Assembly: GCA_017629615.1 (NCBI GenBank)
Contig: JAGBWT010000024.1
Location: 1-19,772 of the forward strand
DNA from: Alistipes sp.
GTDB lineage: Bacteria; Bacteroidota; Bacteroidia; Bacteroidales; Rikenellaceae
Direction of reading: 5' to 3'
Length of the DNA: 19,772 bases
Under the pieces are notes generated by a model, which saw nothing but the letters and a program-made list of their open reading frames with translations, was not told where the DNA came from and ran no database searches. Positions 1-13,153 of this stretch are shown piece by piece (within the stretch, counting starts at the first letter, position 1; every line of letters begins with the position of its first letter). The translations under genes were made by a program, and so were the position numbers.

Positions 1-228
1 GCTGGGTAGAATGGGTTGTGCTGGGTTCGGCTGGGTTTGGCTGGGGAGAGTGGATTTTGCTGGGTTTGGCTGGGTAGAGTGGGTTGTGCTGGATTTGGCT
101 GGGTAGAGTGGGTTGTGCTGGGTTTTGCTGGGTAGGCTGGGGAGAGTGGGTTGTGCTGGATTTCAGGCTACCCAGACTACTCAATCTACCCCGAACGCCC
201 CTAACGCCTCTAACGCCCTCAACGACCC
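1..228. repeat. G-rich intergenic repeat, copy A (left end outside window)
   Basis: Non-coding repeat-rich stretch downstream of the fadL-type gene. Positions 1-150 are built from 9-10 bp units of the type GCTGGGTTTG and GGGTAGAGT, with GGG tracts at 4, 13, 23, 33, 43 and again at 101, 110, 120, 130, 139, 148. Loops within each group are 5-7 nt, so both 4-46 and 101-150 fit the G-quadruplex pattern. From 168 the units change to CTACCCAGA/CTACTCAAT (168-191) and then to four 9-bp units of CTAACGCCY type (192-227). It shares 25- and 26-nt exact matches with copy B (3-27 with 2074-2098; 116-141 with 2129-2154) in the same orientation. Short open frames here are low-complexity by-products. Confidence 0.9.
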
Positions 229-234
229 CCCCAC

Positions 235-270
235 AAAAAAAGCATCGGCACGGATTGCTCCGTGCCGACG
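235..270 (-). terminator. Intrinsic terminator of the fadL-type gene
   Basis: A perfect 10-bp stem pairs TCGGCACGGA (245-254) with TCCGTGCCGA (259-268) around a TTGC loop. Read on the minus strand it is followed by seven T (A run at 235-241). It lies about 30 bp past the stop codon of the minus-strand gene, as expected for a Rho-independent terminator. Confidence 0.88.
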
Positions 271-299
271 ACACACACATTATAAATTGATTACCTCTT

Positions 300-1739
300 T
301 TAGAAGTGGAAATCCAAACCGAGACCCCAGCAGTAGCGCGAGTTCTTGAAGATGTCTTTGCCCGGGAGACCGAGGCTGTTGTCGTTATAGACAGCCGACT
401 CCTTAACAACGTCCTTGTAGATTACGCCCATAGCACCTGCGTTGAGGCGGATATGCTTGTTGAAGTTGTAGGCGAAACCGAGACCAATAGCGTGAGCATC
501 GCACTGGAAATCGAGGTCGGAGTATGCCTGTGGGTTGAGGCTGTAATCGGTGTACTGATAACCTGCGCTCACGAGCCACTTGTCGTTAATCTTGTACTCC
601 AAACCTGCGAGGTACTCCTGCGTATTGTTGAGGATTGCAGGTGTGAACGAGTTTTGCGCATCTTTATCGAAGTAGTAGTGCCACTCACCGGTGATGGTGA
701 ACTTCTCGCAGAAGGTCTTGCTTGCGGCAATCGACAAGAGAGCAGGCATATCGGCCTTGCTCTTTGCGCCATCGGCGAACATTGTGCCGAGAACAGGGTC
801 GTTTGCAGTTGCGGCAGCGGTGGCGTTTGTGAGCGACATCGACTGCTTGAACTCATACTTTGCAGTTGCAGCCCAACCGTTCTTCTGGAACATAATCGCT
901 ACAACAGGCGAAATCGACCAGCCACTCTGCTTAACGTCGAGTGTGTGGTCCGAAACCATCGCTGCGTAGGTCATATACTGTGTATAAGCTGCCAAAGCCG
1001 CAGCGTCGCCAGCCAACGCACCCTGCTGATATGGTGCTGCCAAGCCCTGGAAGATTGCAGCGGCAGGCGCCATCTGACCACTCATAGGGTTGAGCATCTG
1101 GATATTCTTCAAATAGCCGGTGTACGACTTGGTAGCGTAGTTCAAACGAGCCTGTGCAGCAACCGACAACCACTCGGTAATCTTAAATGCTACACCCACC
1201 TGGCCCTGGAAGGTCATCGACGAACCCTTGATGTACATATCCATCGAGTATGGGAGAGGCTGACCTGCTGCCTGCATACCTACGCCAAATGGCAACTGAC
1301 CTACCATTGACTCGAACGATGCAAGACCGTTGTTGAATTTTGCAGTACCGCCGCCACCGCCGATTCCGAACGATGCCATCACAGCCCAACGATTCTTCTT
1401 CCACACAAAGTCAACGCTTGGAATCACGGGAGCGAACGTTTTACCTACAAATTCACGAGTGTCGGTGTTGTTACCATTTGTATTATATGCGAATGGTGCG
1501 AATGTCGAAACTGTCGAACGATTCTGTATAGCCTCCTGAATGCTCAACGTGAAGTGGAAGCCGTCCTCCATCATCGCCGCGCCGGCAGGGTTGTGGTATA
1601 CAGCATCGGGGTCGAGAGTCGTGCCTCGTGCTACACCTCTAATAAAATTAACAGTGTGATTAGTGTTTACGTTTGTACCTCCTGCAAAGGCCGTAGCCAC
1701 AGCGGCAAGAGAGACGATTGTCATCAAAATTTTCTTCAT
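300..1739 (-). CDS. OmpP1/FadL-family outer membrane transport protein
   Basis: Predicted 479-residue outer membrane beta-barrel of the FadL/TodX/OmpP1 family, which lets long-chain fatty acids or other hydrophobic compounds cross the outer membrane; the substrate here cannot be told. The start at MKKILM is chosen because it opens a signal peptide (residues 1-19, ending AFA before GG); 14 further upstream codons are open but would spoil it. After the signal comes the family's N-terminal plug-like region with LDPDAVYHNPAGAA (about 42-55; NPAG is a family hallmark). The remainder is alternating aromatic/polar beta-strand sequence ending in Phe (LDFHF), the usual C-terminal signal for Bam-dependent insertion. 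An Ala/Gln-rich insertion sits in the middle (about 230-290). It is monocistronic with its own terminator, bracketed by G-rich repeats, and its promoter was not identified with confidence. Confidence 0.85.
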   Translation of the reverse strand: MKKILMTIVSLAAVATAFAGGTNVNTNHTVNFIRGVARGTTLDPDAVYHNPAGAAMMEDGFHFTLSIQEAIQNRSTVSTFAPFAYNTNGNNTDTREFVGKTFAPVIPSVDFVWKKNRWAVMASFGIGGGGGTAKFNNGLASFESMVGQLPFGVGMQAAGQPLPYSMDMYIKGSSMTFQGQVGVAFKITEWLSVAAQARLNYATKSYTGYLKNIQMLNPMSGQMAPAAAIFQGLAAPYQQGALAGDAAALAAYTQYMTYAAMVSDHTLDVKQSGWSISPVVAIMFQKNGWAATAKYEFKQSMSLTNATAAATANDPVLGTMFADGAKSKADMPALLSIAASKTFCEKFTITGEWHYYFDKDAQNSFTPAILNNTQEYLAGLEYKINDKWLVSAGYQYTDYSLNPQAYSDLDFQCDAHAIGLGFAYNFNKHIRLNAGAMGVIYKDVVKESAVYNDNSLGLPGKDIFKNSRYCWGLGLDFHF

Positions 1740-1828
1740 TTCTGTTTTTAATTTGTGATTTCGGCTGCGAATATCGCACATTTGGATTATACCCCCAAAT
1801 AAAAGTGATAAACACCCCTCTGTTGGGA

Positions 1829-1877
1829 TAAAAAACCCTTTTTTAGGGGTAAAATTTGCTATTTAGGGGCGAAATTG
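1829..1877. promoter_or_regulatory. Possible operator upstream of the fadL-type gene
   Basis: TTTAGGGG occurs at 1842-1849 and again at 1862-1869, exactly 20 bp apart, and each copy is followed by a related A-rich tract (TAAAATTTG, CGAAATTGG). The first copy overlaps a perfect dyad TAAAAAA-CCC-TTTTTTA (1829-1845). A partial inverted copy, ACCCCCAAAT, lies at 1791-1800. The sites are about 100-130 bp upstream of the fadL-type start. Two-turn direct repeats suit a dimeric regulator; the identity of any binder is unknown. Confidence 0.35.
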
Positions 1878-1881
1878 GAGC

Positions 1882-1918
1882 AAAAACGCTTCGCTCTTCC
1901 AGGTTAAGGCGAGGTTTT
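1882..1918 (-). terminator. Weak hairpin, possible terminator of the pdxJ-cca operon
   Basis: AAAAC (1883-1887) pairs with GTTTT (1914-1918), and CTTCGC (1889-1894) pairs with GCGAG (1909-1913), with one bulged G and one bulged T. On the minus strand the descending arm ends in a T run. It is imperfect and lies almost 400 bp after the last gene of the leftward operon, beyond repeat copy B, so the assignment is tentative. Confidence 0.28.
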
Positions 1919-1928
1919 AGGGTGGCAC

Positions 1929-2288
1929 CGGGAGGGGCGAGAGGGGGCGGTTGGGTAGAGTGGGTAGGGGCGTTAGGATAGAGGCGTTAGAGGCGTTAGG
2001 GGCGTTAGGGACGTTAGGGGTAGAATGGGTTTGGTTGGGTAGGCTGGGTTGTGCTGGGTTTGGCTGGGGAGGTTGGGTAGAATGGGTTGTGCTGGGTTTG
2101 TCTGGGTTTTGCTGGGTGGGCTGGGTTTTGCTGGGTTTTGCTGGGTAGGCTGGGTAGAATGGGTTTCGATGGGTGGAGGGGGGTGTGCTAGGTAGGCTGG
2201 GTGGGCTGGGTTTTAGGCTACCCAATCTACCCAATCTACTCAATCTACCCAATCTACCTATTTTGCTCTAACAACCGCTAACGCCCCA
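1929..2288. repeat. G-rich intergenic repeat, copy B (complete unit)
   Basis: A stretch of about 360 bp without a credible gene. From left to right: 9-bp units of GGCGTTAGR type (about 1967-2020); a core of GCTGGGTTTG/GGGTAGAAT-type units (about 2017-2183); a short GGG cluster (2199-2210); four copies and a part of CTACCCAAT (2218-2259); and degenerate CTAACR units near 2268-2285. GGG tracts starting at 1999 and ending at 2183 form an unbroken series of 21, with every gap 7 nt or less and start-to-start spacing mostly 9 or 10. The outer arrays are inverted relatives: GGCGTTAGR on the left matches CTAACGCCY on the right of copy A. Frames through it read as Pro/Asn/Gln or Trp/Gly low-complexity strings and are not treated as proteins. 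Confidence 0.9.
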
Positions 2289-2295
2289 ACAGCTG

Positions 2296-2949
2296 TTAAT
2301 TCCTAACTTTCAGGCTTTGGGCAAAGTAGATAAGCGCCGCGAAGAAGAGCAATTCAGGACCGAAGTCGATAATAAAAGTGACGGCGTTGTACAAGAAGAG
2401 CAGAGCCTTCTCGCTGCCCGAATTGTAGATATAATGCCAGAAGTCTGGCGAGACGAAGATATAGAACAGCGTAATTGCCATTTGCGAAATGGCAAAGACG
2501 ATGCTTGTGATGCGCAACGGAATAGAGCGTACCGCCACAGCCAACCAAATCAGTCCGACCATAGATAGGGTGGTGGTAAAGAAGCTCGTTGCGCCTGTAA
2601 TGCCGTACCACGCAGTTGGGATATTCTCGGTTACGAACGAGTAGATGTTGCCCGCAATGTTTCCGATGTTGAGAAGAACTCCGAACAGACAACTAACAGC
2701 GAGTACCACAAACGGGATTTTGCACTTGTCGCCCTGCGGTAGGCCGAAGGCTGCCGTGCCGTATGCTACGAGCAGAAGCAGTTTCGATACCAGATAGATT
2801 ATGTTGGTCGAGATTCCGAGCCAAATGTGGCCATCGTAGATATCCAAAGCCTCAAAAATCAGAGGTGTCACCCAATTTACAACATTGGCAAAGAGTTGGG
2901 CAATGATGGTCAAAATGACGAGTGCAATTACTGCTTTGTAGCCTTTCAT
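2296..2949 (-). CDS. Hypothetical six-helix membrane protein
   Basis: A 217-residue integral membrane protein that I cannot assign to a family. Hydrophobic segments fall at roughly 5-23, 44-68, 79-105, 119-141, 146-166 and 183-212, giving six predicted helices with short loops. A small cytoplasmic-type loop, LPQGDKCKIP (70-79), and a basic tail (KVRN) are the only polar landmarks. No catalytic motif is visible. It begins 21 bp after the cca stop on the same strand, so it is probably the last gene of the pdxJ-cca transcript. The gene ends at the edge of repeat copy B. Codon use looks like that of its neighbours. A role in tRNA or B6 metabolism should not be inferred from position alone. Confidence 0.75.
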   Translation of the reverse strand: MKGYKAVIALVILTIIAQLFANVVNWVTPLIFEALDIYDGHIWLGISTNIIYLVSKLLLLVAYGTAAFGLPQGDKCKIPFVVLAVSCLFGVLLNIGNIAGNIYSFVTENIPTAWYGITGATSFFTTTLSMVGLIWLAVAVRSIPLRITSIVFAISQMAITLFYIFVSPDFWHYIYNSGSEKALLFLYNAVTFIIDFGPELLFFAALIYFAQSLKVRN

Positions 2950-11683: not shown

Positions 11684-13153
11684 CTATTTTGTACCATAGG
11701 TCGGCAACCCCTTGCGAGTCGAGGCGTCGAGCGAGAAGGCGATAAATAGGAGTATCGTAAAGGCGAAGAGCGACGAGCCTCCGTAGCTGATAAACGGCAG
11801 CGGTATGCCCATTACCGGAACAACGCCCATCGTCATACCTATATTTATAAATGTGTGGAACAGCAGGATTGAGGCGACGCAGTAGCAATATACACGGCCG
11901 AATGTCTCCTGCTGGTTGTCACCCATACGCATCAGGCGCAGAATGAGTGCGCAGATGAGCGACAGCAGAATGGCTGCGCCGACAAAACCCCACTCCTCAC
12001 CGATGGTACAGAATATGAAGTCGGTGTGGCGCTCGGGGACAAATCCGTAGCGAATTTGCGACCCTTCGAGGTAGCCCTTGCCCCAAAAGCCGCCCGAGCC
12101 GATTGCGATTTTCGACTGATTGACGTTGTAGTCGGCCGTAGCATCTTTGGCAAGGCCGAGGAAGGTCTGTATTCGTTTTTGCTGGTGATGCTCCAAGATG
12201 TTGTTATAGACGAGGTCCGATGTCGGCAAAATCATCACCGAGGCAAAGAATAGCGCAACGAGTATGTAGAGGTTGCGCAAGGCGGTACGGAATGCATAGA
12301 CAAGCACACCGAGCATCGAGACTATGGTCGTGATGAGCAGACAATAGTAGTAGTTGGCGCTCTCGATTGTGAAGGTCGCAACGACAAATAGTAACGTGCT
12401 GACGATAAACAGAGCTGCGACATACTTGACGCAGAGCGTCCAGCGGTCGGGAGCCATCATTGCGGCCGAGAAGGTAAAGAGTATGATGAGCGCAATGAGC
12501 AGTGTCGTCGGAGTGTAGAGGAACGAGAGGATAAAGAGTGCCGCGATAAAGAGTATCGGGATTGTTATCCAATTATTCAGACCCTCGCGATAGAGCATAA
12601 AGAGGAACGACGCAAGTACCAAACCCGAGCCGAGGTCGTTTTGCAATACGGCGATGGCAAGTGGTGCGAAGATAAGTAGCGCCAAGCGGAAGAGGTCGCC
12701 GATTTTGGTGACCGAGAACGAATATCCGCTGGCCAAGCGAGCTGTGGCCAATGCAACGGCAATCTTGGTGAACTCCATAGGTTGTACGCGGAAGCCACCT
12801 ACGCCGAGCCAGGCAGTTGCGCCATTGACCTTTACACCAATACCCGGAATGAAGGTCAGCAGCAATATGAGTATGCCGGCACCATAGAGAAAGTATGCAA
12901 ATTTGTGCCATACGCTACTGTCGAGCAACAATATTATGAGTGCCGCAACCCAACTCAAACCGAGCCACATCACCTGCTTCATATAGTTGTGCGAGAGGGC
13001 AAACATATTCTCGGCACTCTCGTTCCACGAGGCCGAAAATACTGCCGCCACGCCAATAACCGTCAGCAACAGGTAGAGCGATACGGCAACCAAATCGACT
13101 CCGCCAAAGAGCGAAACACCACGCTGTCTATTTCTTTGATTTATGCCTGTCAT
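11684..13153 (-). CDS. rodA: Rod-shape peptidoglycan polymerase RodA (SEDS family)
   Basis: A 489-residue polytopic membrane protein of the SEDS family, which polymerises lipid II into glycan strands of the lateral wall with PBP2. Visible motifs are NGATAWLGVGGFRVQPMEFTK (110-130), QNDLGSG (171-177), NVNQSKIAIGSGGFWGKG (343-360), PERHTDFIF (373-381), which contains the conserved loop Asp, and GIPLPFISYGGSS (449-461). It is over 100 residues longer than E. coli RodA because of extra hydrophobic segments between about 205 and 310, a form found in Bacteroidota. The ATG lies 26 bp inside the end of mrdA, in another frame, so translation of the pair is probably coupled. Confidence 0.95.
   Translation of the reverse strand: MTGINQRNRQRGVSLFGGVDLVAVSLYLLLTVIGVAAVFSASWNESAENMFALSHNYMKQVMWLGLSWVAALIILLLDSSVWHKFAYFLYGAGILILLLTFIPGIGVKVNGATAWLGVGGFRVQPMEFTKIAVALATARLASGYSFSVTKIGDLFRLALLIFAPLAIAVLQNDLGSGLVLASFLFMLYREGLNNWITIPILFIAALFILSFLYTPTTLLIALIILFTFSAAMMAPDRWTLCVKYVAALFIVSTLLFVVATFTIESANYYYCLLITTIVSMLGVLVYAFRTALRNLYILVALFFASVMILPTSDLVYNNILEHHQQKRIQTFLGLAKDATADYNVNQSKIAIGSGGFWGKGYLEGSQIRYGFVPERHTDFIFCTIGEEWGFVGAAILLSLICALILRLMRMGDNQQETFGRVYCYCVASILLFHTFINIGMTMGVVPVMGIPLPFISYGGSSLFAFTILLFIAFSLDASTRKGLPTYGTK

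Follow-up and report, generated by a model that had tools for sequence, protein, structure and literature searches.

The chain of GGG runs at 1999-2183 of the window, the whole 19,772-nt stretch of Alistipes sp. DNA analysed here, is a real and well-seen pattern, and it is probably best read as the G-rich arm of a hairpin-forming intergenic minisatellite, whose quadruplex potential would be a by-product since the GGG runs come from the core word TGGGTA and its like. The initial annotation, on the other hand, was wrong to lay the stress on quadruplexes and on a neighbouring surface protein.

The GGG chain and the two arrays of the window

Re-scanning of the window recovered all 21 GGG tract starts that had been listed between 1999 and 2183, with gaps of 7 nt or less throughout, and the plus strand satisfies the usual G-quadruplex rule (four runs of at least three G with loops of 1-7 nt) many times over. 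The density is beyond chance, as had been claimed: when the whole window was simulated 100 times with a first-order Markov model, the longest chain held 6 runs compared to 21 in the real sequence, and the simulated copies averaged 0.16 chains of at least four GGG runs whereas the window has four, at 4-46, 101-150, 1920-1970 and 1999-2183. The G4Hunter-type score of 1999-2183, computed with an in-house script, was 1.35, and 31 GGG runs lie between 1920 and 2210. The period of about 9.5 bp put forward in the initial annotation was borne out in part only: 17 of the 20 spacings are 9 or 10, but the others are 4, 5 and 7, and the apparent period is in fact a mixture of 9-nt and 10-nt units. This mixture results from a 6-nt core followed by a 3- or 4-nt linker, which is a better account than the helical turn. 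Likewise, the chain itself is real, but the interval 1999-2183 covers only part of a two-armed feature that extends from about 1920 to 2290.

Two arrays, A at 1-235 and B at approximately 1920-2290, flank an outer-membrane protein gene and share the same layout on the plus strand, in which a short loop separates the G-rich left arm from the C-rich right arm. The left arm of array A (1-163), cut by the window start, is made of TGGGTA/TGGGGA cores followed by 3 nt and TGGGTT/TGGATT cores followed by 4 nt; its loop and right arm (164-235) contain TACCCA/TACTCA units and then CCCCTA/CCTCTA units with ACG, with seven C at the end. Array B runs from outer TAGGGG words through inner TGGGTW words, the loop and inner TACCCA words to outer CCCCTA words. 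Its outer left words, TAGGGG/TAGAGG with CGT, occupy 1920-2019 together with an irregular G-rich stretch, and its inner left arm (2020-2213) consists of TGGGTA/TGGGGA with 3 nt and TGGGTT with 4 nt; the 21 GGG runs correspond to this inner left arm plus the outer left words. The short loop and inner right arm follow at 2214-2258, with four TACCCA/TACTCA units carrying ATC and a part unit (inverted repeats I1 and I3-I5), the C-rich stretch (CTACCCAAT)n at 2218-2258 having a period of 9 with 93% matches. The outer right word CTAACGCCCC (2278-2290) forms inverted repeat I6 with 1964-1976 (13 nt, 92% complementary) and is the mirror of the TAGGGGCGT words at 1964-2019.

The linker length follows the last base of the core, cores ending in A being followed by 3-nt linkers (6/6 in array A, 5/5 in array B) and cores ending in T by 4-nt linkers (10/10 and 9/9 respectively), in counts that exclude irregular stretches and edge units such as the last unit of array A. 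The arrays have related unit words in differing orders, inner and outer words are shared by both arms of the window arrays, and a 29-nt higher-order repeat is present in the G-rich array. The left arms are far longer than the right arms, which speaks against the hairpin reading. A protein-coding origin was rejected as the 111-aa frame at 1917-2252 of the minus strand was passed over by gene calling and matched no Pfam family; a structured RNA family was also set aside, Rfam matches being absent at the window arrays and in seven loci with framed copies (see below).

Dispersal, turnover and arm-to-arm covariation in relatives

Using 1900-2300 as a DNA query gave matches in 16 of the 180 genomes of the genus, with up to three candidates scored per genome, chiefly through the TTAGGGGCG and CTACCCAAT words, and many intergenic arrays were seen in the matched loci and in 40 stretches from 19 genomes. 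Arrays of this kind are intergenic and dispersed in the relatives, and the window has two, as is the case for short-word tandem repeats. In eight group-A relatives (G022, G077, G081, G131, G038, G028, G029 and G084), some of whose stretches were picked because they contained search matches, 59 of the 283 gaps of at least 20 nt bear arrays, compared to none in a Markov control of one copy per gap. Their periods are 7 (53), 14 (6), 8 (2), 9 (11) and 10 (8), with no others within 3-15; thus 7-nt words dominate in these relatives while the window arrays, with units of 9 and 10 nt, lack a 7-nt unit. Among stretches not picked for arrays, 35 of 193 gaps carry one, distributed as 33/141 tandem, 1/26 convergent and 1/26 divergent gaps. 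G083 and G076 have arrays in 6 of 25 gaps, mostly of period 9, and elsewhere array-bearing gaps number 0/44 (G058, G074, G125, G080), 1/18 (G132, G025) and 0/32 (G014, G153, G003). One 20-kb stretch, L062 (G022:C34:1-20000), was dropped from these counts because the simple caller used assigned just 21% of it to coding sequence, against at least 69% in the other stretches.

Whole-genome counts place GCTAATRGCTAATRGC in 27 of 180 genomes (121 times in G022, 113 in G029) and GCGTTAGNGGCGTTAGNGGCGTTA in 7 of 180, while the same patterns read backwards have no match in the 180 genomes. The window's own CTGGGTTNNGCTGGGTNNNGCTGGG word (TGGGTT plus 4 nt) was found in none of the 180 genus genomes. In the relatives, the TTAGGGGCG-type word retains GGG in just 59 of its 110 units (GAGG 36, GGGG 31). 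Among pairs of adjacent G-rich and C-rich arrays, 21 have the G-rich member first and 2 the C-rich one, or 20 of 22 G-first once a stretch counted twice (L047, identical to L083) is removed, both C-first pairs being joints between consecutive hairpins in L080. Single-armed arrays are also common in relatives, and no fixed orientation relative to the upstream gene was seen, 26 of 58 arrays being sense. Runs of six or more G or C (6-10) number 28 in about 113 kb of intergenic DNA versus 20 in about 727 kb of coding DNA (L063-L101, L032-L061 and the window); as a constant array boundary they were rejected, since many intergenic runs do not lie beside arrays when inspected by eye. Some such runs open arrays right after a terminator T run (window 226, L055, L090, L111). 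In L072, tandem repeats of 39 and 27 nt at 12117-12761, both lengths being divisible by three, probably lie within a protein gene. No description of the Alistipes-group arrays was found in the open-licence PubMed Central literature, which is not proof of their absence from print.

Related species have other arrays, or none, at the corresponding junctions. Reading by eye of the junction between pdxJ and the poly-A polymerase gene showed that its words differ among the eight group-A genomes, with 7-nt words of the AATTGAC, TTAGCCA, TTTTGCA, TTTTCCG or CTCTCGT types, the 9-nt TTAGGGTCG in G022 and a gap of only 26 nt in G131. The gap is array-free, at 1-39 nt, in the window and in G080, G058, G074, G125, G132 and G025, and three other genomes have 654 nt of another kind there. 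In all eight group-A genomes, the promoter region between pdxJ and nadK measures 83-84 nt and contains no array.

Covariation between arms was observed in arrays framed by the boxes GCGCAGTYAT and AGCGCT, which are present in G083 (25 counted), G076 (2), G039 (2) and G069 (2); the pattern also occurs without an array in twelve other genomes, and a backward control matches two genomes. Twenty framed copies were read, of which 16 full-length ones were aligned and four 49-nt copies left out. By manual reading, 13 of the 14 copies with TGGGTA-type left cores have a TACCCA-type right arm, the exception (L127) having TCCCTA, and all six copies with TAGGGA/TAAGGA-type left cores have a TCCCTA/TCCTTA-type right arm. 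The core word is swapped in both arms such that pairing is kept, and GGG not always. For the 18 proposed pairs, arranged in three 6-bp helices, 88.5% of cells are paired and 33 cells are changed on both sides in the 16 copies; none of 500 shuffles attains either the pairing or the double-change value, and slid structures pair at 29-52%. The number of pairs changed on both sides (8, attained by 60 of 500 shuffles) and that of further pair types (14, attained by 475 of 500) are less impressive. Since the framed copies are mutually related, the double changes are not independent and the events are few.

A second short element, CTTTCAGCGCA ... TGCGCCKTGA, has nine copies in G077, G028 and G131 (L047, L059, L069-L073, L084, L087), with an interior that varies between 9-nt words, 10-nt words and small hairpins such as AAGCGAACGGAGTGAGCGC.

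Within the window, the minus-strand RNA of 1920-2295 has a fold better than those of 100 out of 100 dinucleotide shuffles (z -4.59), and the plus-strand DNA is less marked (z -2.39, one of 100 shuffles equally good). As a control that preserves periodicity, each left arm was paired with the right arm written backwards, which gave -67.4 compared to -68.7 with its own right arm in array B, and -51.9 compared to -44.3 in array A, where the own arm is thus worse. Because the backwards arm pairs about as well (B) or better (A), the pairing in the window is indistinguishable from an effect of composition. Over 20 islands, the own right arm has a mean rank of 7.4 among 19 others (chance 9.5) and is the best in two only. 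Specific pairing of the window's own arms was consequently not established by the backwards-arm control or the 20-island ranking. The GCGC frame was not found at the window arrays either, the one GCGCA in window 1-2400 being at 656 and the one GCGCT at 565.

A covariance model built from the 16 framed copies, with the window left out, nevertheless matches 2141-2268 of the minus strand (39.4 bits, E 6.7e-7) and, at array A, 128-210 of the minus strand (22.2 bits, E 0.013), with plus-strand matches at 2130-2261 (E 0.0077) and 130-191 (E 0.27); these matches may partly mirror G-rich/C-rich composition. The trait of the framed hairpin family, 6-nt cores complementary between arms with 3-nt linkers, is found in the window at 2141-2268 of the minus strand with its TACCCA and ATC units, to which composition may contribute. 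The same model gave nothing at E of 1 or below in L092, L094, L095 and L099-L101, and two matches near E 0.8-1 in L096. By extension from the framed relatives, we infer that the arms in the window pair in the same manner, and likewise the mechanism set out below.

Neighbouring genes and rival explanations

The gene between the two arrays (300-1736, minus strand) encodes a FadL/OmpP1-like outer-membrane protein, its Toluene_X match (E 5.9e-7, 28.7 bits) just missing the cut-off of 29.7 and its OMP_b-brl match of 30.2 bits being above cut-off. It is followed by an intrinsic-terminator-like hairpin with a 12-pair stem (243-270, minus strand), right after whose T run array A begins; a hairpin and T run likewise follow the gene in those orthologues aligned, and terminator-like sites in the region number 3 versus 2.5 expected in shuffles. 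Its promoter motif pair, ATTTCRCCCCTAAATA then TTTYRCCCCTAAA (1841-1877, minus strand), lies outside the array. All 13 aligned upstream regions (window 1841-1877, L102-L110, L116-L118) contain the pair, in the form ATTTCRCCCCTAAATA ... TTTCRCCCCTAAA with a spacing of about 20 nt, and it is probably a regulator site. Its core TTAGGGGCG doubles as an array word (window 1863 and 1996). Array B is situated between this upstream region and the adjoining stop codon (2296) of a gene for a 217-aa protein (2296-2949, minus strand), which is without Pfam family and for which a search among about 5.8 billion proteins yielded only five relatives. As in Alistipes-group genomes, the genes pdxJ, CCA/poly-A polymerase, nadK, uppS and bamA follow in this order in the window; of 180 genomes in the genus to which G001 belongs, 175 contain the poly-A polymerase gene, the best being 89% identical.

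The initial annotation had raised as a speculation, by analogy with Neisseria pilE, a role of the chain beside the surface-protein gene. This idea did not survive comparison with the orthologues, as the array is not conserved there though the promoter motif is. By a fixed array test, one of 12 upstream regions (L118, period 11) and one of 10 downstream regions (L108, period 7) of orthologues bear an array, both made of other words; the window, by contrast, has arrays on both sides of the gene. Other-word arrays downstream of the orthologue were also noted by eye or with lower-threshold Tandem Repeats Finder in G067 (L103), G075 (L111) and G025 (L109). The outer-membrane protein gene is found in 16 of 36 relatives' genomes, always in single copy, a lone second match in G075 being another piece of the same gene; therefore, these 36 genomes showed no silent donor copies comparable to pilS. 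The period-11 array upstream of the gene in G075 (L118) consists of CTGCCCCTCTC and degenerate 11-nt units, a period otherwise absent from the sample, and Alistipes sp. RGIG8565 (L001 9482-9530) has a 9-nt array of ACTGAGGCC/ACTGGGGCC approximately 500 nt upstream of the orthologue.

In the preferred reading of the chain as one arm of a hairpin-forming minisatellite, each unit would comprise a 6-nt core, having its reverse complement in the opposite arm, and a 3- or 4-nt linker, giving the 9- and 10-nt periods. The arrays would be drawn from a stock of 7-, 9- and 10-nt words located between genes, mostly tandem ones, in the genomes of some Alistipes-group gut bacteria; replication slippage would lengthen and shorten the arms, and fold-back of a strand or recombination between copies would keep the two arms matching in their words. 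Gaps devoid of promoters would tolerate the arrays, which would be replaced quickly, and transcription or RNA ends might be affected locally. A more speculative and rather unlikely proposal is a rewriting of words at intergenic hairpins, whereby both arms would change in step between 6-nt cores while array length and boxes stay the same and pairing is preserved despite the turnover of sequence; the GGG chain of the window would then be an overgrown arm, and the strict periods of 7, 9 and 10 nt would reflect the copying step, for example fold-back synthesis with one arm as template.

No dedicated enzyme for such rewriting was identified. A reverse transcriptase as writer was rejected, RVT_1 being present in 18 of 36 relatives but in 7 of 18 array-rich versus 11 of 18 array-poor ones, classes picked manually and mainly by heptamer counts (the 'poor' G037 has one heptamer match); it is absent from the array-rich G022, G028, G029, G038 and G131. 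Loss of mismatch repair was rejected as well, with MutS in 31 of 36 relatives (15/18 array-rich, 16/18 array-poor). SbcC is above cut-off in none of the 36, which is uninformative since merely one of 14 control genomes passes it. Spread by plasmids was discarded with zero matches among 72,556 plasmid records, the BLAST low-complexity filter being on.

Slippage alone could yield an ordinary G-rich minisatellite whose C-rich partner and fold are incidental, the pairing being unmaintained in the window. The weak arm specificity over 20 islands and its absence for array A agree with this, as do the frequent single-armed arrays of relatives and the 29-nt higher-order repeat, expected from block slippage; it is nonetheless judged unlikely, while deserving serious weight, in view of the covariation in framed relatives, the G-first order of neighbour pairs and the inner and outer words common to both window arms. 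Distinctly less probable is a small mobile element of the MITE/REP class with a minisatellite interior, similar to BrickBuilt of Porphyromonas gingivalis. Such an element would account for the fixed boxes around the G083, G076, G039 and G069 arrays and for the nine CTTTCAGCGCA copies with changing interior, but the window arrays lack the GCGC-type frame, and the Y1 transposase family PF01797 was found in 0 of 36 relatives, which do not include these four framed genomes.

A functional DNA quadruplex cluster, regulating the outer-membrane protein gene or driving recombination as at Neisseria pilE, is improbable. It would fit the 21 closely spaced GGG runs, far above simulation, and the quadruplexes that G-rich heptamer repeats of Xanthomonas and Nostoc form in vitro (PMC4692102). 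The loss of GGG from many units in relatives argues against it, as do the conservation of the promoter motif rather than of the array, the single-copy gene and the second array of the same kind beyond the gene's terminator-like hairpin. Finally, tandem repeats in general are prone to misassembly, but an assembly artefact has a negligible chance of being the explanation here given that one window holds two arrays with related but differing unit orders and that the same kind of arrays recurs in many separately assembled relatives.

Comparison with known short-word repeats

Dispersed short-word repeats have been known in bacteria for decades, and we know of no good account of their origin and spread. 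The window arrays extend this class with 9/10-nt, two-armed members and with word swapping in framed relatives. With differing words at the same junctions, the 7/9/10 periods and the framed covariation, they offer a concrete case for separating slippage, fold-back copying and selection for hairpins. They also indicate that a count of quadruplex motifs can by itself give a false picture when a repeated word produces G runs as a by-product.

The resemblance to the pilE quadruplex of Neisseria gonorrhoeae lies in a G-rich run near a surface-protein gene; there, gene conversion from silent copies requires the quadruplex and a promoter that starts inside it (PMC3547852), whereas in the relatives studied here silent copies were not seen and the array beside the gene is not conserved.

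The TAACTGA heptamers of Beggiatoaceae, cyanobacteria and some Bacteroidetes are likewise direct repeats of a short word with a patchy distribution between genes; they differ in being a single word that, in the genome described, mostly lies immediately before start codons, and inverted arms are not mentioned in the available part of that report (PMC4679880).

BrickBuilt of Porphyromonas gingivalis, also in the Bacteroidales, is an intergenic minisatellite with predicted long stem loops that is sometimes placed just after a terminator, as described in the available part of its report; it is, however, a 23-nt minisatellite within a MITE with leader and tail segments of up to about 300 nt, unlike the window arrays, which show neither leader nor tail, and word swapping is not described for it in that part (PMC4596501).

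The GGGNATC heptamers of Xanthomonas and Nostoc are, like the arrays described here, dispersed G-rich tandem words located between genes and scarce between divergent ones, those of Xanthomonas often forming convergent pairs that could fold into stem-loops, with array lengths varying between related species (PMC4692102). Unlike these systems and their one dominant 7-nt word, the arrays described here combine 9- and 10-nt units, several words per genome and matched swaps between arms.
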